Shown here piece by piece: positions 10,101 through 64,000 of a stretch of DNA of 64,000 nt. The position numbers and the translations under genes are program-made. Numbering within the stretch: the stretch's first letter is position 1; each line of letters starts with the position of its first letter. The stretch is from positions 31,598 to 95,597 of the forward strand of contig FMBT01000454.1 in NCBI GenBank assembly GCA_900095095.1. The letters run 5' to 3'. The stretch comes from Fragilariopsis cylindrus CCMP1102. Lineage: Eukaryota; Bacillariophyta; Bacillariophyceae; Bacillariales; Bacillariaceae. Below the pieces are notes generated by a model. It searched no databases and was not told the DNA's origin. It saw only the letters and a program-made list of their open reading frames with translations.

Positions 10101-10656
10101 CCTTAGACAAAGCGTAAATTGCTGACAAAATTCGGGGTAGCGGAGAATTCCAAAATTGATCGTAGGATGAATACACATAGCAGTCGTTGTTGTTTGATTG
10201 ATTTTTCGTGTTTGTGTTTGTGTTTGTGTCTATGTCTGTGTTTGTATTTGTATCTGTATCTGTATTTGTATTTGTATTTGTATTTGTATTTGTATTTGTA
10301 TTTGTATTATCAGTAGTATCATCATCATCATCATCGTCACCTATACAGTGTGTTTGTGAATCTATTTGCATCTTCGACATGATGGAACATGCCGATTCGG
10401 TCAATTCGTTGACCATAGGTGCAATGTAACGATCTAATAGCGATGGAAGTTCAAGATATTTATCAAATATCTTTCGTAGTTGCGCCAAGGCTCGGTCATT
10501 GGGCTCATAATTCTTGTCTATTCGGTCGACCGTCAGCTCTCGAATGCATTGAAAAGCCTTTTCCTCTTCCTCGAAGAGTACAGCGGCATTGGATGACGCC
10601 GACGAGGATGATATTGTTGTCGTGCCATCAGTGTAGCCAACATTATCGTCGTCCAT
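6559..10656 (-). CDS. TBCD: Tubulin-folding cofactor D
   Basis: Two exons, complement(6559..7061, 7213..10656) within one base; the intron of about 150 bp starts GTAAGT and ends CCAG. The spliced product is about 1,315 aa, close to the roughly 1,190-aa human protein plus a Thr/Asn repeat. Diagnostic conserved blocks are VRWSAAKGVGRITSRLP, RRAASAAFQEMVGRQGAQN and IPHPTEMIQEQAGRALF. The C-terminal exon has GRVILPLLKTIDILM and FPRIRSLAAEKLYVRLLE, matching the TBCD C-terminal domain. The rest is HEAT repeats. Family knowledge: TBCD captures beta-tubulin after the CCT chaperonin, assembles the alpha/beta heterodimer with cofactors E and C, and acts with Arl2. Residues about 120-150 are a six-base minisatellite (TN repeats). 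The intron contains a (GA)n tract. A beta-tubulin gene lies 2.3 kb away. Confidence 0.93.
7099..7130. repeat. (GA)n microsatellite inside the TBCD intron
   Basis: GAGAGAGA tract with one interruption (gagaaagag), in the single intron of the cofactor D gene. Confidence 0.8.
10206..10312. repeat. Six-base minisatellite coding for Thr-Asn repeats
   Basis: The plus strand reads (TGTATT/TGTGTT)n with a few variants. On the minus strand this encodes (Thr-Asn/Asp)n inside the N-terminal region of cofactor D, followed by an Asp run. It is in frame, so copy-number change would not break the gene. Confidence 0.85.
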
Positions 10657-11074
10657 TGCGGATTCGTCGTGGTCTATTGCAGCTGCACGTAGCCTTTTTC
10701 TTTTATATCATTTTTAAATTTCAACAACAGCTAATGTGAAATGATAATTTATTTTACAAAAAAACAAAAACAAAGCTGTCGAGTCACGAAGGATACATTC
10801 GGGACTAAAAGCATTTTTGTAAACTGCCATCCACGTAAGCAATCCAGTCACCGCGAACTGAGTAGATCAAGATCAAGATTCGATTTTTCTACGGCATTCC
10901 CACGCTCCACTGCATGACCACTGACACAAAGAATGCTAAAACTTCAACAGCTGATAACAGCTTGTTCGACACACATCAAATAAATTATCGACATTATTAC
11001 TTCGTATCAAGACATAACAACATATAAAAATAAAAATACCGTAATAAAATAAATAATAACAGCAGACAAGCAAG
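10657..11074. promoter_or_regulatory. Divergent promoter region TBCD / plastid protein
   Basis: A 418-bp region between two divergent start codons, presumably holding both promoters. AT-rich stretches precede each start (for example 11021-11060). No specific element can be assigned with confidence. Confidence 0.5.
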
Positions 11075-12920: not shown

Positions 12921-14775
<1,855 letters not shown>

Positions 14776-36700: not shown

Positions 36701-37355
36701 CGTAAATATATGACACTTTCGGCAGAAGCGTTCCCGGTTCTTGTTTTCGTGGTGTTTCGTTTCGTTGTTCCGTTATTCGTTTTTCGTCTGTGTGCTATTA
36801 GAAGTCAATTATATTGTGCATCTATAATTTGTTGCGGTACGGTAGGAGCCAGTATTTTAATTCATATTCCTACAGAAAAGAAAAAAAGATTTAACCGTCT
36901 TTTCCAATCCCGTTTTAAGACCTTCCGACCACAAGTTTGTTTGTTGTAAGTCCTCGAAAGTTGAGCATAGAGGACCATAGTGACACAAAAAAGATAAAAA
37001 AGATCCAACTTCGCCATTTGTTATGTGTATTAACATGGAAAGCGTGCCAAAGCAAGCACATTATTTATTCAAGTCTTATTTTCGAATTTTAAACATACCA
37101 AAGTACAAGTACGTATTATACGTATGCTAGATGTATACGTATGGTATCAATCAATCCCAGCCGTCCGTTCCGCAGCTAACATCGCGATTTGAGATTTTTG
37201 AAGAACTTGTAAATTTGCTTTTATTACGACAATCAATATCGGTATACAATTATAGAAACGAGAATAGGCAAAGCTTCCGGTACAGGTACATTCTTATCTT
37301 GTCGAACGCTTTTCTGCGACGATATTATATCTTTCCTCTAACGTAATAATAAAAG
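36701..37355. promoter_or_regulatory. Divergent promoter region, ThrE-like / TYW3 fusion
   Basis: 655 bp between two divergent starts. A 79-codon plus-strand ORF at 36710 is hydrophobic but lacks support and is not called. AT-rich DNA precedes the ATG at 37356. Confidence 0.5.
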
Positions 37356-39092
37356 ATGACGGACTCCACTTGGAAACAGCGAAGACTGAACGATTTCGAA
37401 AATGCTAAGGGACAGTGTCATGGCAAACGAGACAAGTCGTTTGCTGGTCGGATCGATCCGAAAGCTGTCGACGTTTGTGGAATTATCAATGAACGCGAGG
37501 AGATGTATACAACTTCGTCATGCGCTGGACGGTGCTTCATATACACAGGACCGGGAATTAAATCCTCAAAGGAATTCAAACGATTTCGAATATCTCACGA
37601 AAAAATTGCAAATCCGGATCGTTACTTCGATTTAACAACAATCCAATCGGACCCGTCTGGTGGAGGTGATCCGATACGGACAGTTGGTCAGTACGACTAC
37701 AAAGTAACCGGCGAGAAAATCGACGACGAGAATAAGAATGACGACAACGTCAACGACGAAGAAGAAAAGTTGCAAATCGAAAATAAAGCTTCGGACGACA
37801 AAACAATATGGCTTCGTTTCGAACCCTTCATTTTACACGTTGCTTGTAGGTCTCTGTCAGCGGCATCGTATCTGATGGCGACCGCACGACCAGCTTTTAA
37901 AAACGTTGGATTGACCGCATGGAAGGACGAACGGCATTATCTTGTTGCAATTTGGGGCGACGAGGGACTAGAAATGCCGTTGTGTACGCCAACGGGTGTA
38001 CCGTTATACCAACAACAGGATGGCGAGAGTATGTCACAATGGTTAGCGGATCTAGTTAATGAACGACAAACAAGAAATTGGAATAAGGTTGAAAGATTTT
38101 GTCAAAGTCTACGAGAAATGGGACCCACAACCGACGATGATTTGGAAGAAGAAAATTCGATAGCTTTTCATTTGAATGAGAGAAATACTATTATGAGCGA
38201 CGGCAACATGGATGGCAACGAAAAACGGATAATTCCAAAAAGCTACGATGTAATCGGAGATGTTGCGTATCTCCATTCTATGCCGGAAGAAGGTGATCCT
38301 CTTGCAATCGGAACTGCAATCATGCAGAAGAATAAATCCATTAAGGTCGTCGTCGCTCGACAATCCAACTTCAAAGGTACAGAATGTGCTCCGGGGGAGG
38401 ATGGTCTAACCATCATCGCTGGAGCACAACGATCTCCGTTGATTACATCACACACTGAATTTGGTATTAGATGTGTTGTGGACTTGAACCATTGCTTCTT
38501 CAGCCCTAGAATGGCTTCAGAACGACTACGAATATGTCAACAGGTCGCTCGTGGGGAAGACGTCTTAGTGTGCTTCGCTGGTGTTGGAATGGAGGCGATT
38601 CAGATTTCGGGTCGAACGGAAGCATCATCGGTGGTTGCCGTAGAACTCAACGAGGTGGCGGTTGAGTGTGCTCGACGGGGACATCGTATGCTCTGGAAAA
38701 ATAAGGCCGTTAAATGTACTGGAGCAGCCGAACGCCTAGAGATTATACAGGGTGATATTCTTGAGGTAATACCATCTTTAGATCGTCAATTCGATCGAAT
38801 ATTGGCACCAAGACCAAAAGAAGGGAACCTGGACGGAGATTTAGGATCCGGGGACGGTGGAGAGAAATTCTTAAAAGTATTGTTGCGACACTTAAAGGAT
38901 GGAGGTGAATGTCATTGGTACGATTTTGTTGCAGACCACGAATATCCTGCATGCGAACGGACAAAGGCATTGATACAGAGATGTTGTGAAAAACAAGGAA
39001 TGCGTATGGAAGTACTACATGCAGCACATGTTGGAAGTGTTGCAAAGCGTCAATTACGTTTGTGTCTTGATTTTAAAGTACATCGTTCGTAA
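37356..39092 (+). CDS. TYW3 fused to TYW2/Trm5-type tRNA methyltransferase (wybutosine pathway)
   Basis: Single exon, 578 aa. Residues about 1-230 are TYW3: KRDKSFAGRIDPKAVDVCG, INEREEMYTTSSCAGRCFIY (the TTSSCxGR hallmark), WLRFEPFILHVACRSLSAA and FKNVGLTAWKDE. Residues about 290-578 are a class-I methyltransferase of the Trm5/TYW2 superfamily: YDVIGDVAYLHSM, the GTERAPGE-like block as GTECAPGEDGLTIIAG, FFSPRMASERLRI, FAGVGMEAIQISGR (SAM site), VVAVELNEVAVECARRGH, ILAPRPKEGN and HWYDFV. TYW3 methylates N-4 of the tricyclic base in tRNA-Phe position 37. The C-terminal half either adds the aminocarboxypropyl group (TYW2) or makes m1G37 (Trm5). The HWYDF block looks more Trm5-like, so the exact reaction is left open. 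Confidence 0.85.
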   Translation: MTDSTWKQRRLNDFENAKGQCHGKRDKSFAGRIDPKAVDVCGIINEREEMYTTSSCAGRCFIYTGPGIKSSKEFKRFRISHEKIANPDRYFDLTTIQSDPSGGGDPIRTVGQYDYKVTGEKIDDENKNDDNVNDEEEKLQIENKASDDKTIWLRFEPFILHVACRSLSAASYLMATARPAFKNVGLTAWKDERHYLVAIWGDEGLEMPLCTPTGVPLYQQQDGESMSQWLADLVNERQTRNWNKVERFCQSLREMGPTTDDDLEEENSIAFHLNERNTIMSDGNMDGNEKRIIPKSYDVIGDVAYLHSMPEEGDPLAIGTAIMQKNKSIKVVVARQSNFKGTECAPGEDGLTIIAGAQRSPLITSHTEFGIRCVVDLNHCFFSPRMASERLRICQQVARGEDVLVCFAGVGMEAIQISGRTEASSVVAVELNEVAVECARRGHRMLWKNKAVKCTGAAERLEIIQGDILEVIPSLDRQFDRILAPRPKEGNLDGDLGSGDGGEKFLKVLLRHLKDGGECHWYDFVADHEYPACERTKALIQRCCEKQGMRMEVLHAAHVGSVAKRQLRLCLDFKVHRS

Positions 39093-46782: not shown

Positions 46783-48093
46783 TTATTGTGGATAAATAGT
46801 GGTTACACATATTTTTGAACCTAAGTAGTAGCTGTAGATGCCGTACTCGTAGTTCTTGTAGTAGATAAATTTTTCCAAATAAGACGTAGCCTCCTTTAAA
46901 TTATCCCTGCAGCCGTCGAAACTCTCGTTACATACTCCGTATCGTTTCCACCACTCTTTTTTGAAGAACGATTTATTACTGATACTACTGTTGTTCTTAA
47001 TGCTACTGTCTTTGTTATTATGGATCAATAACGTAGTAGTGTCATTGCTGTGCCATCTTCATCGTCATTATTGCCATTTCCTTCTCTTCCAATCTATGTA
47101 CAGCCAAGTCAAGAGCAGCACAAGCCATCTCAACGATACCCCATTGAAGCGCATAGGATAAAACAGAGCATCATTTAGACGTCGAAATGAAAATAATAGG
47201 AGTTTGTCTCGCAGAATAGTTACAGTGCTGCCATTATTATTATCATTATATAAAAACTATCGTCGTCGTTCGAATGATTAAAATTATTGGTGCCGTGGTT
47301 ATTATTATCAGCAGCAGCATTGTCATAGTTTTGTTTCCCCGCGGTATTGGATGAGTTAATCGAATATTTTTCTCGTCCAATAATAAAGATGATGTTGGGT
47401 TGTTGTTACTTCTTTTGCCGTTTTTTGAGCTTGATTTTGAATTAACTTTGGACTTTGACAACAATAACAACTGCTGCCATACCTCGATTTCTTTTTCTAA
47501 TATCCAATATACTGCTCTATGTGGATGAGAAACGGAACAATCAAATCCTAACCATCTCAAGACAATTGATTCTGTTTCAATTGCTTCCTTTTCGAATCCC
47601 AGTATGCTTCTTCATTCAATGACGGTGGTGTTGTTAAATTCATACAAAGAACGTTCTTATTGTTATTGTGTTCGTTGTCTATGTCTTTTGACATTGACGA
47701 CGACGACAATACCATTCGTGCCATGTTGATAACATCACGAAGCCTTCGGGGTTCCTCTTCGGTCTTGCATGCCAGGAAGAGGCAAACCGCTCCGATCCAT
47801 GGCCATTCATCATTGTAATTGTCGTCGTCAGTATCATATTCGTTATTGTTGTTGGTCACCTACTTCGTTTTTGTTATTGTTTCCCCCTTTATTATTTTTC
47901 ATTTTTAGATTGTGCGTATCGATGAAGTAAACTATAGCAGTGAATCTTGTTTCTGTTTTCACTTGAAGGATATGACAAGCAATATACATACGAGAAATAA
48001 ATGATGACTTGATGGCAAAATTATCATGCTGTTGTTGCTTCTTCTTTGTACAATTTTCTGACGTTTATGTCTTATTTGTATATCGTCGTCCAT
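46783..48093 (-). pseudogene. Cyclin (C/K/L/T-like), broken by at least five frameshifts
   Basis: The minus strand reads as a transcription-type cyclin when frames are combined. Pieces in order: start MDDDIQIRHKRQKIVQRR, then FISRMYIACHILQVKTETRF, LHRYAQSKNEK, WPWIGAVCLFLACKTEEEPR, RLRDVINMARMVL, IETESIVLRWLGFDCSVSHP and HRAVYWILEKEIEVW. A second cyclin fold then has WGIVEMACAALDLAVHRLEE and FFKKEWWKRYGVCNESFDGC. The blocks 'LACKTEEEPR+LRDV' and 'LR.LGFD..V.HPH' are cyclin-L/K/T hallmarks. Shifts lie near 48035, 47925, 47865, 47583 and in the C-terminal half; at 47583 one G is missing before EAIETES. The density is higher than in other genes here, so true decay is possible. Family role: partner of a CDK acting on RNA polymerase II or splicing. 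Confidence 0.72.
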
Positions 48094-48352
48094 TTTTGTG
48101 GTTGTGGTTGTGGTTGTTGTTGTTAGATGCTGATATCACCCCGTCGTTGTTACCTGGTGGAGAGGAGGCCTCAAAGAAAATGATGAACACAACAATGACC
48201 GTTGTTGGTAGTAGTGTTGTTGCCTTTCCCTTCGTTCGCCACCGTCATCGTCATCATCGTCGTGTCCGTTCTAATAGAAGCATGCAGAGGTTGTTAGTGA
48301 CGACTCTTTTGTACACGGTACACGGTATAGGGAAATGAAGTTTTGAGTTGTG
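48094..48352. promoter_or_regulatory. Cyclin upstream region, left flank of the transposon
   Basis: Short flank between the cyclin start and the TTAA of the transposon. Plus-strand ORFs here are antisense to it and are not genes. Confidence 0.5.
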
Positions 48353-48369
48353 TTAAGGTGGTATCATCA
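48353..48369. repeat. Left TSD (TTAA) and TIR
   Basis: TTAA then GGTGGTATCATCA, matching the inverted sequence at 57975-57991 over 17 bp in total. Confidence 0.9.
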
Positions 48370-49073
48370 GCGTGCGCCGAAAATCGCGCTACAACGCGTA
48401 AAAGCACGGTGAAAATGGACAATTCGTGTCCATTTTGGTTAGACCTATTGTGCTGGCAGTGTTCTCGTACACGCACCGTCCTATATATGATGACCTTCGT
48501 CTGCTCAACACGAATCTTTCTATGTCCAATTTGATTGGTGTTCAGCGCGTGTACTAGGTGCTGTATATTTCTGAAACTCAAAAAGGTGGTTTTTAGCCGT
48601 TTTCTGCGAAAATAGTTCAAAAGTGTTTATCTACATCAATTTTTACGTTAAACACTTAATACCGGTGGGGGTTATATTCTGCTAAATGAGTTCTACCCGT
48701 ACGTCATTCAACCGTCGTGATCCGAGCCTTGGGTGTCATCCAAATAGGGCTCCGAATCTTGCTCTAAAATCTCCCTTTCGAGTAGACAGCAATGGAATTG
48801 CGAATTTGTTAGGTCCGCTGTTGCCGCTGTTTCTTCGCACGAATCTTCAAGCGCGCATAGCTCATTTTCCTCAACGTTTGGATTGTTGGATTCCAACGTC
48901 CCTTATTACCGTTAGAAATAAAGAAAAGCAGAAGTACACTTCAGTAGTTTTATGGATTTCTTTGTGAAAATTTGAATTATAATTACATACGCAGAAAACA
49001 CGATTGTACCCGGTAGGATCACTCTTTTGTTGGTCGCAACGGTAAATTTCACCACCGGCCAATTTCAACCCCC
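48370..49073. other. Left subterminal part of the transposon
   Basis: About 700 bp between the left TIR and the transposase stop. ORFs of 62-93 codons occur on both strands (for example 48708-48896 minus, acidic), but none is convincing. Confidence 0.5.
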
Positions 49074-51501
49074 TCACATTATTCCTCCCATACCTCCCAT
49101 CTCACATTTTGCACACAACCACTTACCGGTATTTTCATCTATTACACTTTCCACTGGTTCGTCAACTAAATTTACTTCGTCGTGTTTCAACTCTTCAACC
49201 ACCGTATGATCAGGTATACCATTTGGGTACTCTAATATCATGGCTTTAATTAAAGCCGGATCCTCACCCTCCTTCGTAACGTAATTTTTATGATACGGGC
49301 AATGTTGAGATTTGTTGACATGATCCTTTCTTTTGCAAAGCTTACAAGACGTCCTCTTTTTTTTCCCATCAATTGCTGCGGTAGTTACCTTTTTTTTTGC
49401 CTTTTTCCTTGTATTCAACGCTGCTCGTGATGTACCCTCGTTCAATCCCATTCCAGGTTTGTAAAATTCTCCTTTATCCTGTGATTTCTCCTCCTTTTTT
49501 CCGATTCTCCCTCTTCTTTATGTTTTTCCGCATCATTCTTCTCCTTTTTATCGTGTCTAATTGGATGTAGTGTTTTTTTGTAGGTCCTTTTTTTCTCTAT
49601 ATCCGTCCATCCCTTTACTCGTAGCAGATTATTTTTCAAATCCCATTCTCTTATACAATTCAACCATGGTGGATTTGTACCCGTCTGTAATAATACATAC
49701 CGAGAAATGGACCCTACCTTTATCCGCTATTGTCGTTCCGAAATTCTTGTGTTTGGGGCAAAAACTTTGTTACAACAAAGTTTGCTGATTCACTCAAATT
49801 TGTATTTACCTTATGGTGTATTTCTCGTAGTTGTTGCTCGGTGGTATAACGTTTGTGTATCTCCTTCAAGTTATCATACATTAATTTGTTTTTCACTTTG
49901 GCAACGATAATGTAAATGATCCGCCGATTTTTTTGTATCAGTTAGCTTTTTAGCAGCGCACCACTCACCGCACAGTTCGTGATTATTAAAATGATGCTCT
50001 ATAACTGGTGCGAATGCAGCACAGAATAAATTGAAATCCTTATCCACATTCTTAGCCCGAGCGTACGCAAAATTGACTTTCAATCGATCACGGTCAACAC
50101 CAGTTACTCCCCCACTTTCCCCTTCCTCATGTTAACTAACTTCTGAACTGCATTACCGAATCCACGCACTCTGTGATTAGCATCCGCTTTACAGATAGGT
50201 TCAGGTATGTTCAGTTCAAGTGCACCGTGGTCGTTTTTGTTGCTCAATTGGATGGTTGGCGTTAGGTCCTCCTTTCGACATAATCCTGCTTCTATCTTTT
50301 CTCTTCCATTCTGTTTTAGTCGGGCTCTCATACTGGAATCGTCATCAGTAACAATAGTGCCTACAAACGCATCACCCTTGGAAAAAATCGATTGGATGCA
50401 TTTCAAAGCAGCATGAGGTTCCATTCCCTTTGCAGAACCTGTATAGTTATGCGAGCACAATTTCGGATCGTGTTCCAACTTGTGTTCACATTTTCGACAA
50501 CGCGTGGACATCTGCTCAAAGTAGAGAATTTTATTCGTCTCTACTCCAAAAGCAAAAAATTGGGCTTGTTGTGCGTCGTAAGTTCTTCCGGAGCTACGCT
50601 TTCTCCATCCAGCATCCATAGATACGCCTATGTTTCGTTTTTTCTTTGGTCTTGGTCTCGCTTCTTGGTTTTCGTCCAACGAAACTGCATCTACTTCCAA
50701 CGCGGGTGTATTTGACATAGGGGTATTTTCACCCGCCTTTCTTTTTCTAATCGTATCTGCAACGAGGTGCACCTCATCAGTGATTGGATCGTTGACCAAT
50801 TGTGATTCCTTTTTTTCGTCGTTCAAGTTTCTTTCAACTACTTCTTCCGCCATTTTTATTATGTGCAGAGCCATAGTTTCTTCATTGGATGTAAACGAGT
50901 CTAGCAATTGTCGCTGGCTGCAACATAGATTAAGCTGAGAGGCAACCAATGCGTAATCGTGTCCGCCACCTCCAATCATCATTATACCTAAAGTCAAGTC
51001 TAGATTGAGTTGATACTGTCGAGTAGCACGGTTACCACATTTTTTTATATCATATGGATCGCACTTGTCGTCAACCAACTTATCCAAATCAACCATGGCT
51101 GGTTCCTTGACGGACCATTCGTTATATTTTTCACAAATCACATTCTTACATGCTAGACTGACCTTTGTAGCTATTCCGATAGTTTCGGCACAAAACTCCA
51201 TTGTGTTCATTTTCCTGCATTTACAACACACTGTGTTTTCGACAAGAAGAGCAGTTATGCTCTTCCATGCAATTATTACATTCCGATCGTCACACTTGTT
51301 TACAAAAATTCGACCCCCCCCATCATTCACCCAATGTGCCAAGTTCAACCTATTTGTAAAACACCATGGATCAAATAATTGCTTTAACCTATTTGTAAAA
51401 CACCATGGATCAAATAAATTGCTTCAACTAAAACAACATTCGTGGTTCACGTAATAGTATTGTTTCCTTGTGCTCTGTTCTCTGTCAGTAGCGGAATCCA
51501 T
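49074..51501 (-). pseudogene. Kolobok/Mutator-like DDE transposase, frameshifted
   Basis: The minus strand from a possible ATG at 51501 (or inside FDPWCFTNRLNLAHW) to 49074 gives about 800 aa when frames are joined. The core is recognisable: NIGVSMDAGWRKRSSGRTYD (first Asp), CRKCEHKLEHDPKLCSHNY, TGSAKGMEPHAALKCIQSIF, GTIVTDDDSSMRARL (second acidic site) and NLSESANFVVTKFLPK (likely catalytic Glu). HKNFGTTIADKGRVHFSVCI and a basic tail follow. A CCHC-like zinc knuckle (CKLCKRKDHVNKSQHCPYH) ends the protein. Shifts occur at the C5 run 50109-50113, G4 run 49755-49758, T5 run 49632-49636 and T6 run 49495-49500. The 'GSxxGME..AL' block is typical of this transposase class, which targets TTAA. All catalytic residues are present. 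Confidence 0.82.
51347..51425. repeat. 39-bp tandem duplication inside the transposase 5' region
   Basis: The unit aacctatttgtaaaacacca... occurs at 51347-51385 and again at 51386-51425 with one extra A. On the coding strand it repeats the peptide FDPWCFTNRL. Confidence 0.9.
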
Positions 51502-51953
51502 AACGAGCGCGGTGAACCATTTGATTCGACAACCAACGACCAGGTTGTGCAAAGCATCTATTCGAACCACGTATCTATACAAACCACACTCGTGTCAAAT
51601 CAAACTGGACGGACAAGATTCAAATCAGTATTGTCATTCTTTCAAATTGTCTGTTGCTGTAATGCATCCTTTTTGTCGTTAACGGTTACGACGAGCCCAT
51701 CGGTAGGTAGTACTGACTTACCCCCAAAATCCGAAAAATTGCGCGCCTTTTCTGAATACGTGCAGGTGCAGGTGCTTGGTATTTATCTCCTATGAAATTG
51801 TAATAAGAATAGTTGAAAGATCTAATACACGCCGGCTATACAAACCTGTTGATAGTCTTCCAGGTCGATTCAAAAAACGCCCATACAACCGGCAACAAAT
51901 CACATGTTTCCCTCCGTTTTCAACTCAATATCTAACACGGTTGCTTTCCAGAA
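51502..51953. other. Transposon interior, uncertain coding
   Basis: A plus-strand ORF (51442-51795) begins with a signal-like stretch and could be the 5' end of the plus-strand cargo ORF, but it is antisense to the transposase start. Only one of the two can be real. Not called separately. Confidence 0.4.
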
Positions 51954-53466
51954 AGAGAGGGACTTTCACCGGCCATCATTCGTAAGCATCAAGAGCAGGG
52001 CTGGATCTTCCGTTTGACAAATCAAAGCGTTAGCACCCCGGTTGTATACAACAATGCTATAGTTCCCTCCATTTTGAACACGACCTACTTCTATCCTTTA
52101 TTATTTTAGCGTACTAAAGTAACAAAAAGCACTATACTTGACCTAAATATTGTGGAAGTCGAACAATATGATCATAATTTGCAACTTCGTTCGACAAAAC
52201 AGTAGTATCCAATTACAACACGTATCATGTTGTTTTCTGTTGTTAATGGCTTTGAGCAATTTTTATTGTCAGTCTCCTCTCATTTCTCGGATGAAACTAT
52301 ATACCTGCCTTACGACGATAAATTGGAACACCCGATCTGGATAGTCTCTCAATACAAACCTCTTCAAGTTCCACCCATGTCGTATTTGCTGTATGAGGAC
52401 CGTTCGGTAACTTTCACTGCTGAATATCATTTGCAGGAGGTAGATGGTGAACAGAATACCATCCAGGTGCTCAAGAAGATAGTTCGAGTACATCTACCGT
52501 TTTGGACAAGTTACACAGATTGCGTAAAGTAATCCACACTCTCATGGGCGGAGGCAACCCATTTACAAAGAGAGGGAAGTGATTTATTCACTGAGCGTCG
52601 AATGGTTATTGGAGGCATTGCTTCCTCCACGAGTTTGTGTACATATTAACAACCTCAAATCGTTTCCAAATTGAAGACTACCCTGAAATCCACGCTGGTT
52701 CACAGAACAGGTCTGGTATTACGAAATGGAATCGATATGAGTTTTAGATCGGAGAATTTGATGCCATCTGCACAGGCTGCACAGATGGGTACCAACAGTC
52801 CCTACACAGGGGGATGTTCCACAGGTCGAATTTGAGAAAGTTGATTCCTGGTCGCTCTGTTACTCGAGACAAGAAACATGGAAAGAAACACACGCTCGTA
52901 TTAACGAACAGTGCAAACGATTCCGTATTACCAACTTCAAGGAACCAACACGAATGCTGTGCTATTACAGCCCCGGTGGAAATTCATCCAGGCAAAATTG
53001 CACCATGCAATTGTCATCCTTGTGCTTGGGAAATCAATAGAGTAGAGATAATTCGTAATGTTAACTCTATGCGAGGTGAAAGCAGTACTCGGCCAATGAA
53101 CGTCGCTTCCTTGGATATCGTTTTTTTTACTTCATTTTCACGACGGATATGCCCTATAAACAAGCGCGTTCCCTCCCTCGTTGTGGAACAGAGGCAATTA
53201 AAAAGGATGGCCAATCCACCCGGTGTCGGTTTCACCGGGTTCAAGCTCCACTCGTCGAACCAATACCGTGGCGTGCTGTTTCTTCTCCACAAGCTAATTA
53301 CCCCGGATGTTCCACCAGGCATCATCTGCCGTCCCCGTCAATCAAATACTACATCGATCCCAAAAAAAAACCAAACGAGGTAATCGAGATTCACGACGAA
53401 GTTCAGATCAAGATTGGAAAAAGGATAAAGGAGGTAATTGAAATTGAAACCGACGACGACGAGTAA
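51954..53466 (+). pseudogene. Transposon cargo ORF, unknown, with stops and shifts
   Basis: A constant plus-strand frame from about 51954 to 52532 reads like a real protein (QEQGWIFRLTNQSVSTPVVY, FSDETIYLPYDDKLEHPIWI, PMSYLLYEDRSVTFTAEYHL) with only two TAG codons (52107, 52203). After a shift it continues VLDKLHRLRKVIHTLMGGGN. Later pieces (SWSLCYSRQETWKETHARIN, CKRFRITNFKEPTRMLCYY, CNCHPCAWEI) lie in changing frames, and it ends with acidic EVIEIETDDDE at 53464. No known family recognised. It belongs to the transposon, opposite in direction to the transposase. Confidence 0.45.
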
Positions 53467-53877
53467 ACAAAAGAGAAATGAGGATGATTGAAATGTGTAA
53501 CAGTAACCGATTGGATTGATGAGTAAATGTAATGAACGACGATGAATAAACCACTGTAAAAAAGAAAAAAGATTAAGCAAAAAGCAACACAGAAGAAAGA
53601 TATAAAAGAGAACTATATTGTAATGAATCTAGTTCTACTTTCTTATTAGTTAGTTGTATAATAGGCATACTTGGTTGTTTGTGCATAAACCAAGTAACTT
53701 TTAACCTATGTGAATTCTGACCGTGTTGATTGTATAGGTAGCGAGCTTGGTGGTGATGACATCCACCAGGTTGTATAAAACTCAATTGCTATGTTCCAAT
53801 AATTACTGTTCCAATCCTATCCGTAAACGATGTTTCAGTGTACTCATGTCAACATAGGCGTTGATTGATTTTATTTT
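53467..53877. other. Transposon interior, non-coding spacer
   Basis: About 400 bp between two convergent cargo ORFs. It is AT-rich and nothing is recognised. Confidence 0.5.
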
Positions 53878-56353
53878 CTATTCTTTTTCTCCTTTTTCTC
53901 CTTTTCCTCCTTTTCCTCCTTTTTCTTCTTTTCTTCTTTCTCTTCTTCTTTTCATTATTGTGTTGTTATCAGCACCTATTCTATTATCACTACTATTACC
54001 ACTAGCGCTACCATTTACAGAATCGGTGGTGCGAGCACTATTACGTGCGCTCAATAGCGCTTTCACCGTCAAATGTTGATTGTTTCCGCCCCTTGCGACA
54101 TTCGACCCCGTCGAATGTTCGTCAACAGTTGATCCGTTCGTTGTGGCATTTAAATTAAATAGTTGTAATATTTCTTTGATTTCGTCGCTGTTGCTCTTGC
54201 AACCCGTCGTCACTACTACCGCGGACGATTCGGCGGAGGTGTTGTTGTCACCCTCACCGACTTTCAACCCCGTCGAATGTTGTTGTCCGCTAGTTGCTGT
54301 TTCCGCATCGTCAACAGTTGATCCGTTCGTCGCGGCGGTCAAATTTCCTGAGTTGCTGATACCTGTTTCGGCAGATGTATTGTTTGTGCCCTGTGCGACA
54401 TTCAACCCCGCATCATTAGCAGCATCCTCTGCGTTGGCCTGACCTGTTTTCTCACCGTGAGCAGGTGGTTCGTTCGTTTTGTCATTTAAATTTAGTTGCC
54501 CGTCGGATTCAACCCCAGCGACATCCAACCCCGTCGGATGTTGTAGTTCAATGACTGTTTCCTCACTGTTAGCAGTTGGTGCGTTCGTCGTGGCATTTAA
54601 ATCGACCAGATCCTCCGATCTTCCAGATCGTCCGGATCGTCCGCATTTCATTAACAGTTTTTCCTGCTTCGTTTGTTCTCCAAAAATGGGTGAGTTCATC
54701 TATGTCGGTTGCCGTGTGATTGACATAATTATTTTCTCCGTTGGTTTCACTTTCCAAATACCTTTTAAACTCATCTAAGGCCTTGGGTCGACCATATGCC
54801 ATCGCAGCTGTTTTTTTTCTTCGGCATAATGGTTCGTATTTGTGTCCAACCCCATTGATGTCGGTAATTTGTAGAAGTATAAATTCTTGTGATGGAAACT
54901 CCATACCAGGACGCTGACTGTATCTGTCGAAGACGTTCGTCATAGTTTCCACATTTGCTTTCAGTTTTTTTCGTTGTTGGCCAGCCATACATGCGGCGGG
55001 TGTAGTCCAGGTTCTCTTTGGCCTATATTCACGCAGTGACGCACTGAATCCTTTCTCAGTCCACAAACCGTCATCCGTATAATTCTGTTCACTCCATTCT
55101 CCGTTGTCTGGTATGCCTGCAGCCTCAATGTTATCATCACCATCATTCTGTACCATTGGTTCATCCGGATCAAGTGTATCATCACCCGGGTCGTATATCG
55201 AAACACTGTCCGATTTACTTACCGAATCATCTTCATCTGATGAGTGATGTGCTACCTCCACTGATTGGGTTGGAGGTTTCTTCTGTTGAGATATCAGAAT
55301 TCTTTCACTTCGTCTCGGTCCCAAATTCTGACCTGGTTGAATTTGAGTATGATCAGATTGTGATAGGGCAAAATTCGGACCTAGTTGATTATCACCTTGA
55401 TTTAACGCAGCAAAAGCAACCTTCTTTCGCTTTGGTACAGCGGGTACAGCAGGTACAGCGGGTACAGCAGGTACAGGCGGTAAAATAAGGGATGAATCTT
55501 CTCCAAGCATTCCCTCGGGAACCTTAATCCATTCGACTCCATCCACTGCCGACTTGTTTAATTCTAAAAATCCTTTTTCAACGAACATATCGACAAATGA
55601 ACCACAAGCAACAAATGTCATTCCAATCGATAAATTGTTTTTCAAAAGGGTCATGCCTTTGTCAAACATTTTGTCGGAGTTGTTATATGCATGGTGACAA
55701 TGACACCCGGTAAAAATTTCAACCAGGTGAAAGATCAAACCGCCGCGAGACTCGAGGATGTTGGTTCCAAAGTGATGTCGAATTTGAACAAGGAATAACC
55801 GTTGCAGTTCAAGGTGTGCCGCTGGGGCTACAGATAGGTAAGGAAAACTGTCAACCAAGATTGTTAGTACATCTCTCGATGCAAGTATCTCGTTCGACAA
55901 CACCTCTTCTTCTTCTAGATGTGATATTGTCTCGTCCAACTCTTTGCTGAATTTGACGGTGAAATCTCCTATAACAGCCACGAATTTCAAAAAATAATCG
56001 TCGTTGTCGCTGGCTAAGGGTGAGATGTCCCCCGGTTGAAGTTCGTTGATTTGCTCCACACCCGCTTCTAGTACAATTCCTTCCATACTAGCCAATGTTG
56101 GAAATTTTTCTATTAAAATGTCCAAGAACTGTTGCTGACTATATTTATCCAACCGTTGTGATAAAGGAAGATGATTGTCACTCTTCCAAAATAATTTGAA
56201 ATCGGTATCGAATGTCGCCAATTCGGTAGTTCGCTCTTCATCATTCATAGCCTTTACCAAATCATGAAGATCGGGAGGTGGATATGATGCTGATGCTGCA
56301 GCATCGTGAAGGATGGACATGGTTATTGAAAAACGCAGTAGTTGAAAACTCAA
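53878..56353 (-). CDS. Transposon cargo protein, acidic with N/T repeats, one frameshift
   Basis: Two overlapping minus-strand frames (54569-56353 and 53878-54699) form a protein of about 800 aa; the shift lies between 54569 and 54699. N-terminus MSILHDAAASASYPPPDLHD, then an alpha-helical domain with FPTLASMEGIVLEAGVEQIN and FGTNILESRGGLIFHLVEIF. A VPAVPAVPAVPAVP repeat (55437-55483) leads to an acidic middle and a conserved-looking block (KRTWTTPAACMAGQQRKKLK, GRPKALDEFKRYLESE). The C-terminal third has imperfect repeats of about 45-50 residues (LNATTNxxT...QHxTGLxVxxGxNNTSAE) and ends in Arg/Lys/Gly/Glu runs. No known domain was recognised. The helical part may be a DNA- or protein-binding accessory for transposition; this is inference. 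Confidence 0.6.
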
Positions 56354-56921
56354 ATGAATTATATGATTAGTGGAATATGAGACAATCGAAAGGAGGCTTT
56401 CGAATGTTGTTCTTTTTGAGATTGTGAGAAAAAGGAATTAGGAGGAGAACTACGATGAAGGAAGTAGGAAACAGTCCATGGAAAATACCCATGAGTTGTC
56501 GTAACAGCCAGTATCGGAGTGGTTTACGAATTTGGTTTTCAAAAAGAAACGGAGTGATGGGTTTATGATGTCAACCGTTTTTTATTTTTCAGTACGGGAT
56601 GAATGAATGGTTACAATATATATCGTGGAGGTTGTGTCACAAACGATAATATGGCGCGCCAGTCGGTTATTTTTGTTCACACGGTGAAAAACCGTTGAAA
56701 GATGTTATAATAATAACTGGAGGAGTAACGATCCACACACTACTAACATTGTGTACAGTACTGCGTCGACGTCAGACCTATGGTGGTAAGCGTAGATCCT
56801 GTGTACTTCAACCTGGTCTTGTGTTCTTCACCCTGGTCAAATCCCACATGTAACAATCCATACCAAAGGTGTTTTGACTGGATATTTAGGACAAAACATA
56901 AAAACAGACAGTAATCTCATC
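56354..56921. other. Transposon interior, divergent spacer
   Basis: Between the minus-strand cargo gene and the small plus-strand ORF, with an AscI-like GGCGCGCC (56652-56659) and several TGG/CTTCACC repeats (56810-56840). Possible bidirectional promoter; no ORF. Confidence 0.45.
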
Positions 56922-57302
56922 ATGAATACGTCTTATTACTCCTTAGACCAGTCCACCATCAACGATTTAAAATCGGGTGGACTGACCATGGTGACGATGC
57001 AACAGGGTGAAATGGGTATCATGATGTTCACCTCCCCGAATGAATCTTTTCGGTACAACGATAATTGCATTACTTTGAAAAGAGAAATCGCCGCATTGAA
57101 CAAAGAATTTGAAGATGGAAATGTTGGAAAGAAAGTATACTACAAAAACGTGGCAAAATGGTGTAGCAACGTGCTTCATTTTGCCAACGAATGGAGTCCT
57201 CATCGTGTGCCATTCGATATTCGTGATGGTTACGATGACTGCATGAACACCATTGGTTGTACCAGCACAATGACATGGCCTGACAAAGTACAGATTCCAT
57301 GA
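56922..57302 (+). CDS. Small transposon ORF, 126 aa, unknown
   Basis: Begins at the ATG at 56922 (MNTSYYSLDQSTINDLKSGG). It is mainly alpha/beta-like and polar (TMVTMQQGEMGIMMFTSPNE, LKREIAALNKEFEDGNVGKK, WCSNVLHFANEWSPHRVPFD). Frame-consistent coding continues 48 bp upstream from a TTG, but ATG is preferred. No family recognised. It may be a third accessory ORF of the element. Confidence 0.5.
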   Translation: MNTSYYSLDQSTINDLKSGGLTMVTMQQGEMGIMMFTSPNESFRYNDNCITLKREIAALNKEFEDGNVGKKVYYKNVAKWCSNVLHFANEWSPHRVPFDIRDGYDDCMNTIGCTSTMTWPDKVQIP

Positions 57303-57974
57303 GCGAGTTGCCTGATGAAGCACGAAACGAGATAGTCGCATCATACACCGTAATTTAGTCGATGCAATATAAATGATAGGTAATAGTTTTAATAAAATAA
57401 AATCCAACTAATACGAATAGCCATAGTATAGTAATAAATGAAATGTTTCTTAAAATGTATACTAGTGTCTTATTTAGTTACAATCACGAACGATTATTCT
57501 GGACCTTTTTGGGAAAAACCCGGGTGATATCTGCCATTGGTGGATTACAACTATAGTCCATATGGTTGTCGATGTAACAGTGAACAGAACTGAATTTGTC
57601 TGGTTTGAAACCGGTAGTGATACCAGAATCATCTTCCGTTCCAGTGTTGTTAGTTAGGGTAAAATAAAAAACACTAGGATCGGGTGAATACACCGTGGTG
57701 TGATATTGCATATTAACTCTTGGGAAGAGATGCTCGTCGGACTTTATTCGGGGTTCGGTCGACGTTTTTGTATGGTACTTAGTACGAAAAATTGGGTGGG
57801 CGTTATTTTACTGTTACAAGAGAACACCTACAGAAAGGGAATCGCAAAAAAAAAACACGAATATACAGGATTTGATTTTAAAAAAAAGGATATCAAAGAC
57901 GGTGATAATCGATGGGGGTGAAATTCCAAATTCCGTGATTTTTGGACTCATCGCGCACCATATCGAAGGATTCG
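57303..57974. other. Right subterminal part of the transposon
   Basis: A 75-codon minus-strand ORF (57484-57711, FSSVHCYIDNHMDYSCNPPM) and a 73-codon plus-strand ORF (57700-57921) are present. Neither has enough support to be called a gene. Confidence 0.45.
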
Positions 57975-57991
57975 TGATGATACCACCTTAA
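57975..57991. repeat. Right TIR and TSD (TTAA)
   Basis: TGATGATACCACC followed by TTAA, the inverted copy of the left end. Confidence 0.9.
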
Positions 57992-58418
57992 TTGATATTT
58001 TATTGTGAAATTAAAAACAAACGATTAATTGTTACGTGATGTAACAGAAGCAAGCAAGCTATAAAAGAGAACAATAAAAGTTCGCACCCATCCCAATAAC
58101 AGAACAAGGCAGATTGTATGTGGTGTTCCTTCTGATTCCGCGTCTTTTTCAATACAACCTACTCCAAAACAAATACCGTACTGTACTACTGGAACACCTG
58201 TACTAACCCGTTAACATCACAATCACAAGCAACCTACAGTTTATTAATAAAAAAGCTGCTCTTGAGCGTGAATTATAAGAGAGAAAAAAAAAGAGAGAAA
58301 TAAGAGTGTGTGAGAGAGAGAAAGAGAAAGCGATTGATTCGATTAAATTCATTCAATTCACGCAAAGTCAAAGAAAGTCAAAAGAAAGTCAAATTCAAAT
58401 TTTAGATTTTAAATTAGT
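57992..58418. promoter_or_regulatory. Upstream region of the HA-domain gene, right flank of the transposon
   Basis: Contains a (GA)n-like tract (58281-58325) and AAGTCAAA repeats (58365-58395) before the ATG at 58419. A GTACTGTAC-like palindrome lies at about 58178. Confidence 0.5.
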
Positions 58419-61400
58419 ATGAGTGGTGTTAATAGAAATAATTTTCTAAGATTTCGACGGTTATCGTCGTCGTCATCGTCAAGTAATCATAATAATAATA
58501 ATATACAAGGCGTGCAAGAACAAGGTGTACAGCAGCAAGATCAAAAATCTTTATCATTACTAGCGTCATCGGCATCGTCATCGTCCGCATCCGCATCCGC
58601 ATCCGCATCATCGTCGTCGACTAATAATACTACTACTACTAGTAGTAGTAGTAGTAGTAGTAGGGTAGAAAAGATGGTATTATGCGATACGAATCATCCG
58701 GTGGAAAATGAAAAGAAAAAGGAGGCGAGAGAAGAGGATACAGAATTAAACGAAATAAGTCACGGTAGTCGTCGCGGATGGAATCTGAAAAAAAAAATAG
58801 GCGTAGTAGAGATACTACCGCCGGTACTAATAGTACTGCGGCTATTACCTCCAGTAGTAGTAGTACTTTGGGTATTAGTCGTAACGATGACGTCAATGAT
58901 GGCGACGACGATGACAGTAGGAGTACCAACAACAACAAAAATAAGAGAATGAAATTTGATGGCGGTGAAAGCAACAGCAACAACAACCACAGGGAGGACG
59001 AAGACGAAGACGGACGACGAGAAGACAAAACTACTAACGTTAGTAGTAGTAGTAATAGTAGTCCTGATAATGTGGATGATGGAGTAACAGTAATATTGAA
59101 AAAAAAGGATGTACCAAAAGAATTAGTAGATACAAATTATGGCAAAGAATCGAAATATTGGCAGTCATTAAATGATGTATTACAATTAAAAAGAACAGAT
59201 CGTAGACAATCATTAGGATCTGATTCATCTGATTATGATTATGAGTCATCCTCTGACTCTGAATCGGAAGAGGAATGTAATGAGAATGATTCGGACAATG
59301 ATAATGATGATAATGATAATGGCGATTCTCATAAATCGGAAGGAGGAAAGAAGAAGAAGAAGAAGAAGAGCAAGATAAAAAAAGAAAAACGTTCTCGTTC
59401 GAAATCATTAAAAAGAATATTAGCTCGTGCTCGTGCACGTTCATTATCAAGATCACAATCCCAATCCGAATCCCAATCAGCAGTGGTAGTACAAAATTCA
59501 AAATCTACAAATTCAAAATCTACTGAATCTACTGAATTATCGTCAAAATTATCATCTCATCAAACAAGTTATTCGAGATCATCGAAGTCAAAGTCAAAAT
59601 CATTACCATTCGAGGATACTATTGCGACTACGACGACGACGACAACAACGTCGAAGAAGAAGAAGAATCCTCCTCCATCTCCTCCTGTCAATAATAGTAC
59701 TTCTAGTAGACGACCACAACGTCGTCGACGTAAGAACAGTATTGCCAGCAGTCGTGCTACTACTACACATAACAACGATGAGGATGATGATGATATTGAT
59801 GCATTCGATATTGATGTGGATGATTTTGTGGTATTGAATGTAAGTCCATCAATTGTTGCTGCTACAACTGCTGCAAGACAACAACGTCGTAGTACTAGTA
59901 GTAGAAATCGTAGTCCTGCAAAAGCAGAAGCTGCAAATGATCATGGTGACAATGATGATGATGATGATGATGAGACATGGGATGAAATGTATCAACATTT
60001 AGCTAAATTCTACAAGAAGTATGGTCATTGTAAGGTTACTAAAGAATTAGATATATTAGTAAAGAGAAAGAAGAATGGTCGTTCACAACAATATGGTGAA
60101 TTAAAAAAATCATTGCAATATTGGGTAACCTATCAACATCGACGTATGAGACCGGAAATCAAACATCGTGGTGGGGCACGTAATCTAAGTCTAAGAGAAG
60201 AAAAATTATTAAATGAACTGAATTTTTGTAAATTTGAATACAAAGAAACTGTACAAGAATTTGATAATTTTTTTGGTAGACGTATTGCCAAAAAATTTGA
60301 TTTTTTACAAGATGATGGTATAGAAACAACACAAATTTATTTTGGTACTGTTGGTAGAATATCATCTATATCAAATAAAGTAAGTGTTAGTTACTATTTT
60401 AGTTTTTGCCATGCTGGCGTCGTCATTGCCCTGCTTACTATCAACTCAAAAAAATCTAACAAAACCCGCCTTTTCCTTTTCCTCCTTTCCTTCCTCTTAC
60501 CTACTATTTTGCTGCTGCTATTGCTGTTTATTGTATCTTGTAATTGTAATTATTCATAGTGGGTACGTATTAATTATGATGATGGTGATAGGGAAGATCT
60601 TGATACAACACATTTAATGTATGGATTACATTTATATAAAAATATTCAAATCAAGATATTAATAAACAACCAGCAACAACAACAACAAGTAGTGCTGCTT
60701 CTGATGCTGATGTTCAGGCTGATGCTATTGATGTTGATGGCAACAACGAACGTATAAGTAGTAGTACTCCTATTACTAAACGTCGTCTTGCTCGTCAAGG
60801 GGGTGTCAAACAATGTATTCATCAAAATGCTGGTACTGATAATGATATATTGGTATCATCTACTTGGACTACATCCTGTGGCAACATAAAGTATGCTACA
60901 AATATTCTACTTGAAGCTGATAAGAAGAAGAATTCGAATGAAACGAAAACCATCGATCGTGTCGTCCTCGTTGATGAGGACAAGGACAAGCACAGATATG
61001 AGAAAAGTAAACGACGACTACGACGATCATCATGATGTTTTGGTAGAAGGAGAAGGGCGTAGTAGAGCTGATTATGACGACGAAAATAATAATAAAAAAC
61101 CTGCTGCTGTGCAAAAGAAAAGAAAAGCTTCCTCTACTGCTGCTGCTGCACATCATCGTTCATCAGATGAAGAATTTATGTTAGATCCTGATGATGACAA
61201 TGGTGATGATGATGATGATGAATTAGAAGATTGTACCGATGAAGAGAAAATGACTATAACAACGATAATGATAATGGTAAAGACGACAGTCCCGAAAAAA
61301 ATAAAAGTTGTCATTCCATCAGTTATAGTAATTCTTCTAAATTCCAGAAGATGATGATAAAGAAACGACAACGACGAACCTTACCTACTATTGCTACATC

Positions 61401-63473
61401 CTCCAGAAATAGGAATATGAAGAACAGCGACAGCGACAGCTACAACGACAGCGATAATAACATCAACAACAGGAAGATAGATGATTCATTGTATGATGGA
61501 GAAGAAGAAGAAAATCCGATGACAACTACGACGGCGGATACGAAGTCGACAGCGACAATGACGACGACGATCACGATAAAGATGCTACTACTGCAACTAC
61601 AAGTGTAAAGAATGAAGGAGAAGAAAAAGAAGATGTGCACGAGGACGATTATGCTGCCCGTGCTACTACTGCTAGTAGTAAAGCAGCGACAACTGCCCCT
61701 ATGAATGATGAATATTATCATGATTCTAGTGATGATGAGGCTATTATAAATAAAATGACATTTATTTCTCCTCCTCCTACTTCTGCTGCAGCTGCTGCAG
61801 CTGGTATTGGTACCAACATTGATGATAATACGAAAACGATAGGTCGTTATTTCTATTCTTTTGGTAATAACAGTAATGGTAATCCTGCTGACACTGGCAC
61901 TGCTGCTGACACTGCTGCTACTGTTCCCACTCTTGCCAAGATTACTAATGCTCAATATGCTGGACAACGATCTGCTGAAGGAACATTTAATGCAGCATCA
62001 TCTGCATCATCAGTAGCAGTAGCGAATCAGAAAATGAAGGCGCAACGAGAAATCATTACTATTGACACTACCGATGAGGAGGATAATGCCAATGCCAACG
62101 AAGATAATGATAATGATATCCACATGACTGCCAATAATCTCAGTCTCAATATCGCTTTAGCAGCAATGGATCATGACCAATATAATAACAATACGACATT
62201 AGCAAAGCAGCAGCTGCAGGTGCACCCGCACGCGCGGGATCATCAACGTCATCAACAGCATCTTCAGCAGCATCAGCATCATCATCAGATTGCAGCAGCA
62301 GCAGCAAAAACAAAAAATCCTCGTCCAAAAACAAATCGTCGAAATTATTCATCAATGCTTGAAGTAACAAAGGACTACTACAATAATGGTAATAATGATG
62401 TTAGTATTCATCAGCAGGGTGATAAAAGTAATCAAAATGATAAAAAAGAAGAAGAAGAGGAAGAAAAAGAAGAAGCAACTATTTTTAACAAACCGACTAT
62501 GCTTGAAATAACAAGAGAATATTACAAAAAGAAAAATATTAATAACAATGATAATGCATCATCTTCAGTTATTCACCATCGTCCTGTTGAAGATTCATAT
62601 CGACACAAAATACATAGTACAATTCGACGAAGCAACGGTGGTGGTTCTGCTGGTGCTATTGCTCCAAATGCCACTACCTCTTCTTCTACTGGTCTTGCCA
62701 GTAGTAGTTATGGGATGATGCACGGCAACAACGGCAGTATGCGTACGTCATCTGTTGCTTCTGCTTCTGCTGCTGCTGCTGCTGCTGCTGCCTCAAATAC
62801 ATTATCATCTACCCAATTGCAAGAATTAATGATCCGTAAAGCAATTGAAGAAGAAGCTGCAGCAGCATGGGCAGATACAGATGCATATAATGAAGTAGAT
62901 GACATAGGTGGTATAGATACAGATACGGTAGGTGCGATAAATGCAATAACTACAAATGTAAATGCAGCATTAAATATGGTACTACAACAACAACACCAAC
63001 AACAGCAACAACAAGCATTAATAGAACAACAACAACAGCAACAAGTATTAATAGAACAACGGCAGCAGCAACAACAACTGCAGCAGCAACGAGAACAGCA
63101 ACAGCAACGAGAACAGCAACAACAACAAATATTAATAAAACGTCAACGAGAACAACAACTAACTCATCAACGGTTAGAACAACAGATTCAACAACGACAA
63201 CAACAATTACAGTTCCAACAGCAACAACGGCAAGTGAATCAAATCAATCTCAATCATAGTAATAATCTTAACATGAATATGAATATGAATATGTATATGA
63301 ATAGTGGTGGTAGTAGTAGTAGTAATAGCAGTAATAATAACGTTGCTGGTGATTACGTTCGATCGTTATACAACCTAAACAATGATAATAATAATAATAA
63401 TAATAATAACAACATCAATAATAATAGTAATACTAGTAGTAATAATAATAGAGGGGGACATCAATATTACTAA
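58419..63473 (+). CDS. Helicase-associated (HA) domain and Tudor-like protein with polyQ/polyN, frameshifted
   Basis: About 1,600 aa across an intron (60380-60559, GTAAGTG..CATAG) and at least five single-base shifts: the A10 run 58788-58797, AAA 60648-60650, AAAA 61003-61006, AAAA 61247-61250 and about 61530-61570. Ser/Ala, Asp and Lys/Arg low complexity surrounds an HA domain (WDEMYQHLAKFYKKYGHCKV, LQYWVTYQHRRMRPEIKH, LSLREEKLLNELNFC). A Tudor-like block follows across the intron (YFGTVGRISSISNK|WVRINYDDGDREDLDTTHL), resembling the DGDxEDLxxxEL motif of chromatin proteins. The last 600 residues are Ala/Gln/Asn-rich and contain two copies of a MLExTxxYY motif. Probably nuclear; the role is unknown. 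The gene is 431 bp from the transposon. Confidence 0.72.
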
Positions 63474-63818
63474 AGTAACTAACTAAAAGATTGAAATGAA
63501 AAATCAAGTCAAGTCAAATTAAATCACAGTCAATAAATAAATCAATATAGTTAAAACAGACAAAAAAGACTTACGAATAGCATGACTCATCACTTTTATC
63601 TCACCTCTGTAATTCTATGTAGCTTGCATTCAGCATAACACTCTATTAATAATAATAGATAGGTGATATGCCATTCAACGCAAGAATAATCAAGCACGGA
63701 AATCCTTTTTTAACGACTGAAAATCAGAAAAGAAAAATAGAAAAAAAACTTCAGTCGTGGTTTTTATTTTTCAATTTTTGTGTTTTGATTTTAAGGGGGT
63801 TATATAGTTTTGTTTTTC
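63474..63818. other. 3' region of the HA-domain gene
   Basis: AT-rich UTR-like sequence. A 73-codon ORF at 63668 is unsupported. Confidence 0.5.
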
Positions 63819-63989
63819 GGCAGGGGCTGTATAGATCAGTCTCAGCCTGGCCTCTCGCGCATTTATCACTGATTATAGTTCTGATCTAGTCGGACCTCAA
63901 ATATTTTTAGAGATCCGAATAGATCAGAACTATAATCAGTGATAATGCGCGAGAGGCCAGGCTGAGACTGATCTATACAGCCCCCTGCC
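63819..63989. mobile_element. Foldback / MITE-like element with 69-bp arms
   Basis: Left arm 63819-63887 and right arm 63921-63989 are inverted copies differing by two single-base indels, around a 33-bp loop. The ends read GGCAGGGG...CCCCTGCC; the inner CAGGGG resembles a hAT-type terminus. No target duplication is evident, and only 11 bp remain on the right before the window ends. Confidence 0.85.
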
Positions 63990-64000
63990 TACAACAAATC

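Follow-up and report, generated by a model that had tools for sequence, protein, structure and literature searches.

A large Kolobok-like transposon family with three extra open reading frames in the diatom Fragilariopsis cylindrus

What kind of element occupies positions 48353-57991 of the window, the whole 64,000-nucleotide stretch of Fragilariopsis cylindrus DNA analysed here, and do the three open reading frames (ORFs) that it carries beside a transposase gene belong to its machinery? The interval is enclosed by a perfect 17-bp inverted repeat, TTAAGGTGGTATCATCA, composed of TTAA and a 13-bp terminal inverted repeat (TIR), and matches to all four of its genes recur in long copies elsewhere in the genome. 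These features very probably identify one copy of a young family of DNA transposons, belonging to the Kolobok superfamily and resident in a diatom genome. Searches of the organism's own genome were made in a 67.9-Mb assembly of 818 contigs, in which the window lies on contig C536 and ends where that contig ends. A first-pass annotation of the sequence had taken the host for a diatom-type genome, and this is backed by 27 Silic_transp (silicon transporter) matches over the family cut-off; 14 control genomes together gave one match below the cut-off and none over it.

Ends, transposase and genomic copies

The ends, the transposase gene and the right flank are placed in the window as follows.

48353..48369, plus strand: left end, TTAA target duplicate and 13-bp TIR GGTGGTATCATCA, from inverted-repeat and pattern search
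48353..48643, plus strand: left subterminal region of ~291 bp, matched at 76-89% identity by 11 of 11 short copies
49074..51423, minus strand: Kolobok/PF20700 DDE transposase gene, broken into at least three frames (50104-51423, 49442-49726 and 49074-49517)
49780..49794, minus strand: SESAN, with the putative catalytic Glu, from motif reading
50332..50349, minus strand: TDDDSS, with the putative second catalytic Asp, from motif reading
50605..50622, minus strand: SMDAGW, with the putative first catalytic Asp, from motif reading
57975..57991, minus strand: right end, inverted 13-bp TIR and TTAA target duplicate, from inverted-repeat and pattern search
57992..64000, no strand assigned: right flank, shared at 99.7-100% identity with the C91, C108 and C390 copies on their right side, a possible mis-join

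The 13-bp perfect TIRs with TTAA at both borders described in the first-pass annotation were borne out by the 17-bp repeat, TTAAGGTGGTATCATCA occupying 48353-48369 and its reverse complement 57975-57991. When the whole window was searched with this 17-mer at up to three mismatches, the two matches obtained were the two element ends, both exact; in a shuffle control at the same tolerance, 2 of 100 shuffles reached two matches (mean 0.22). Immediately within the TTAA, the termini read 5'-GG...CC-3' in the window copy and in 17 two-ended copies, the latter having been collected by a GG-containing pattern, so that their termini are not independent of the search.

In the C91 copy, the transposase frame runs for 749 codons without a stop (start codon not established), and PF20700 is its sole significant Pfam model (E 8e-29, 101 bits against a cut-off of 26.5). 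The same Pfam search gave no match to a piggyBac model, so that the profile check proposed in the first-pass annotation favours its call, and detected no THAP domain. The three acidic sites, the GSAKGME block and the zinc knuckle named in that annotation are all present, the GSAKGME block and a C-terminal CxxC..H..C cluster being found by motif reading in the window transposase, and the open C91 frame confirms the motif order SMD - CxxC..H..C - TDDD - DANH - H..CGEWC - SES. Between TDDD and SES of this frame, motif reading places the DxxH-type signature CKADANH, and a pattern match places a putative zinc finger, HHFNNHELCGEWC, at residue 445, between DxxH and the last Glu. Single-nucleotide polymorphisms (SNPs) were counted in seven copies, the window copy being left out, and only away from insertions and deletions (indels); in the transposase, 46 of 70 were nonsynonymous where 54.1 were expected (P 0.015), three of them making stops, and within-family selection is indicated for the transposase alone among the four genes. 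A search of PDB sequences with the transposase gave no match at E up to 1, and no relative was confirmed in viral contigs (searched with the whole transposase and a 106-aa core) or prokaryote genome contigs (searched with the core). By analogy with known Kolobok biology, the DDE transposase would bind the ends, excise the element and insert it at TTAA, duplicating these four bases.

Genome-wide, the 17-mer of TTAA and TIR has 41 exact and three one-mismatch matches, against two for the reversed pattern; the TIR without TTAA has 54 exact matches, against one for the reversed control, and TTAA stands directly outside 41 of the 54. Of the 41 exact 17-mer matches, 12 delimit six long copies (C91, C108, C276, C390, C516 and C536), 22 delimit 11 short nonautonomous copies (609-671 bp), and the remaining seven are single ends. 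Two of these single ends led to two more long copies, on C416 and C742, bringing the total to eight long copies, six with both ends intact, and another two to right-end fragments at the starts of C40 and C559 (99.1% and 99.7% identical to the element over ~633 bp). Copies sharing the TIR and TTAA, for which the first-pass annotation had called for a whole-genome search, thus number eight long and 11 short. The element is 9.6 kb long in the window and the two-ended long copies measure 9,634-9,677 bp, both TTAA included; pairwise identity among the eight long copies is 97.85-99.95% in the columns compared (for C742, over the part fetched). The PF20700 profile has seven matches in the genome, in seven of the eight long copies and nowhere else, and tblastn with the transposase added fragments on C242 (77%) and C694 (42%).

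The short copies, two pairs of which have common flanks, occupy nine distinct sites. Each of the 11 aligns with the long element's left end across 247-294 columns (76-89% identity), and beyond this left end no further BLAST match to the long element was found at E 1e-3. The sharing of the left subterminal region (48353..48643) with the short copies makes it likely that this region is needed in cis, and the short copies may be mobilised in trans by the transposase of the long element through the common left end and TIRs.

Unoccupied target sites were sought in the same assembly with joined flanks from the window copy and from six of the nine short-copy sites, and with four single long-copy flanks. 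Single-TTAA counterparts were found for two of the six short-copy sites (C80 for C237 and C517 for C42). On C205, the C390 copy's left flank is followed by a single TTAA and then by the sequence beside the C40 element fragment (95.6%, 362 bases); because these stand contiguously, C205 is an unoccupied allele of a long copy. The empty-site comparison, which the first-pass annotation had suggested for a related strain, thus yields within this assembly unoccupied sites for a single long copy and for two of the short-copy sites, and none for the window copy. Two weaker matches, on C558 (85%) and C321 (72%), cross the join at one short-copy site and are at most candidate empty sites. C638 was rejected as an empty site for C276; it resembles the flank and diverges a few bases before the site. 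For the flank beside the C559 fragment, a full counterpart was not found in the own genome.

The surroundings of the long copies appear to be affected by assembly. The left flanks of C536, C91, C108 and C390 have no mutual similarity over the lengths fetched, and the C91, C390 and C536 contigs all stop at one point of a common 6-kb right flank. In the C205 allele the C390 left flank is joined to a different right flank, which favours an assembly mis-join, for C390 only, over the common 6-kb flank being part of a larger mobile unit. The simplest reading, shown for C390 only, is that the assembler repeatedly left the element into one and the same flank, and the window from 57992 on, perhaps with part of the element's right half, may belong to another locus. 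C276 and C516 have a common left flank (94.7-97.8%) and different right flanks, and C416 has one flank in common with C276 (93%). Against each of the seven other copies, the window copy shows many small indels between ~52330 and 53770, which look like uncorrected consensus error.

Several of these observations weigh against a young Kolobok family with eight long insertions. Thirteen of the 54 exact TIR matches have no adjoining TTAA, and may be decayed copies, other families or chance. Four of the six short-copy sites had no accepted unoccupied counterpart, and for the window copy a genome-wide search with the left flank found neither a second place nor an unoccupied counterpart. Because several long copies have flanks in common, the number of independent long insertions may lie below eight. 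Finally, the Kolobok placement rests on a Pfam model labelled Mutator-like and on the criteria in a published survey (PMC9587614).

Other genes were observed in the window. A helicase-associated-domain ORF (58769-60556) lies in the right flank and may not truly neighbour the left flank. To the left of the transposon, 47557-47856 has a weak cyclin-like match slightly under the family cut-off. At 37353-39089, TYW3 and TRM5/TYW2 methyltransferase domains share one frame, apparently a fused tRNA wybutosine enzyme, and a tubulin-specific chaperone D gene (7156-10707) lies near a tubulin gene (12924-14135) on one strand.

The three extra ORFs

Beside the transposase gene, the element carries three ORFs.

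52227..53466, plus strand: ORF3, frameshifted; from ATG open in C276 (422 codons) and C108 (421)
53878..56320, minus strand: ORF2, frameshifted near 54.6-54.7 kb; C-terminal domain also in a C83 frame
56922..57360, plus strand: ORF4, frame shifted near the 3' end; relatives on C89, C384, C439, C164 and C197

All eight long copies have matches to all four genes. Every gene is frameshifted in the window copy and open in some other single copy: from stop to stop, ORF3 has 429 codons in C276 and 428 in C108 and ORF2 has 866 codons in C742 (827 aa from Met), and ORF4 is 145 aa on C91 and several other copies. The three extra ORFs of the first-pass annotation thus exist and are open in other copies, and in the window they are interrupted; as assembled, the window copy lacks the capacity to encode a full-length version of any of the four proteins, and part of this may be consensus error.

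Pfam, PHROGs, NCBIfam and PDB sequences yielded no significant match for ORF2, ORF3 or ORF4. The best Pfam match among them belongs to ORF4 (E 0.1), and no match of the three, to nuclease and helicase families included, rose above noise in Pfam at E up to 5, a search that may miss highly divergent versions. PHROGs gave a single match, of ORF2 to a family of unknown function (E 0.026), and NCBIfam none; in PDB sequences, ORF2 had four matches (E 0.38 or worse), ORF4 two (E 0.34 or worse) and ORF3 none at E up to 1. Structure predictions from single window sequences were too poor for a fold search (mean predicted local distance difference test score, pLDDT, 34 over 583 aa of ORF2 and 55 over 126 aa of ORF4).

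Relatives outside the element were found for two of the three. A 745-aa open frame on C83 (L053 1610-3844), otherwise different, has ~150 aa in common with the C-terminal domain of ORF2, with nonsynonymous and synonymous divergence (dN and dS) of 0.36 and 1.29 and a dN/dS of ~0.28 (NG86 only), so that at least one of the two versions of this domain is probably constrained. The C83 frame is the one intact relative of the domain, a relation that suggests gene capture or domestication, and is a candidate for a domesticated transposon gene or for the source of the transposon's domain. On C772, decayed stretches of both ORF2 halves were found, which suggests that the two halves were not put together recently. 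ORF4 has relatives on C89 (74%), C384 (59%), C439, C164 and C197; its DNA similarity to C89 (84% over 544 bp) extends past the ORF, with a dN/dS of 0.62 (NG86) or 0.41 (YN00). The stand-alone relative on C89 (L055 985-1443), which is flanked by two small ORFs that match no Pfam family, could be what is left of another element. ORF2 and ORF4 thus belong to families that also exist outside the element, with transfer in one direction or the other.

ORF2, ORF3 and ORF4 are most likely accessory proteins, which may act as cofactors or as nucleic-acid-binding or host-interaction factors. A fuller reading, offered tentatively and held at somewhat less than even confidence, is that this is a large diatom Kolobok lineage with a dedicated three-protein accessory set unlike the types in the 2022 survey (PMC9587614), and that the ORF2 domain was exchanged with a diatom gene, having been either donated and domesticated or captured and kept as a cofactor. 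It is also possible, at rather less than even odds, that the three ORFs are passive captured cargo outside the element's machinery. The presence of the ORF2 domain in the C83 frame would fit cargo, as would the relatives of ORF4, particularly the C89 similarity that runs past the ORF with a dN/dS of only 0.62 or 0.41; on the other hand, the ORF2 domain has a dN/dS of ~0.28 at a dS of 1.29, and decayed pieces of both ORF2 halves lie on C772. Selection within the family is not significant for any of the three (nonsynonymous SNPs 22 of 35 in ORF2, P 0.12; 9 of 16 in ORF3, P 0.10, one making a stop; 2 of 3 in ORF4, P 0.59), which favours cargo and counts against an accessory set; against cargo, all eight long copies keep matches to all three ORFs, and the own-genome search with ORF3 matched element copies only.

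Superfamily placement and comparison with known systems

The Kolobok superfamily is characterised by TTAA duplication, RR...YY termini and a DDD/E transposase with C/DxxH, a zinc finger lies between DxxH and Glu in almost all lineages, and a few have a second, CCHC finger after the first Asp (PMC9587614). All of these Kolobok patterns are readable here: TTAA, RR/YY termini, a DDE transposase with DxxH, and both H/C clusters. The first-pass call of a Kolobok-like transposon is upheld by these signatures together with PF20700 and the genomic copies.

A true Mutator-like element (MULE) is improbable, even with PF20700 bearing the label 'Mutator-like transposase'. MULE target duplications are about 8-11 bp, whereas the duplication here is the 4-bp TTAA with single-TTAA empty sites. 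The C/DxxH signature is common to MuDR and Kolobok, but the transposase has an H/C cluster between DxxH and the last Glu, where MuDR is without a zinc finger (PMC9587614). A piggyBac-type element shares the TTAA target and is scarcely credible, as PF20700 matches the transposase where no piggyBac model does and the GG...CC termini have the RR/YY form that separates Kolobok from piggyBac (PMC9587614).

With the Kolobok assignment preferred, the element is best taken as a new family within an already known superfamily, and arguably as a new variant there. Kolobok lineages in the sources consulted come mainly from animals, and diatom Koloboks have been named in Fragilariopsis cylindrus (PMC9587614) and Cyclotella cryptica (PMC7466962); these share superfamily and host group with the present element, the likeness being by name only. 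None of the literature matches listed, which leave Repbase and most subscription journals outside coverage, describes a diatom Kolobok that carries genes like these. The first-pass annotation's proposal of an undescribed system is accordingly too strong for a superfamily already named from diatoms in these sources, the length and the accessory genes being the unfamiliar features. Near-identical copies, unoccupied alleles and short relatives make the family a tractable case for studying Kolobok transposases in algae, and likewise the roles of accessory proteins, since three different proteins may here replace nucleases, a helicase or KolX. The family might also supply a native TTAA element as a laboratory tool in diatoms.

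The closest described systems compare with the element as follows. Kol0 (Kolobok-1_XT and its Xenopus relatives) resembles the present element in its TTAA, short TIRs, transposase with a further protein, and short nonautonomous relatives (PMC6004289, PMC9587614). A THAP domain is usual in the Xenopus Kolobok group (PMC6004289), whereas none was detected here by Pfam. For the KolX protein of Kol0, ORF2-4 gave no Pfam match, the presence of a KolX model in Pfam being uncertain and no KolX sequence having been compared. KolobokP, KolobokE, KolobokD and Kolobok5 share with the element TTAA, RR/YY termini, DxxH, an H/C cluster before the Glu and CxxC..H..C after the first Asp (PMC9587614). The accessory proteins listed for Kolobok are KolX, DEDDh, lambda-type exonuclease, His-Me nuclease and RecQ (PMC9587614); unlike KolobokP/E/D/H, with their His-Me nuclease, lambda-type exonuclease, DEDDh and RecQ accessories, ORF2-4 contain none of these four detectable by Pfam. 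KolobokP carries long terminal direct repeats of ~450 or 660 bp (PMC9587614), whereas none was seen here among the repeats listed, the longest direct repeat in 47800-58600 being 48 nt among the 20 largest of at least 60 families. At 9.6 kb, the diatom element also differs in length from the autonomous oyster KolobokP families, which measure 4,022-4,748 bp (PMC9587614).

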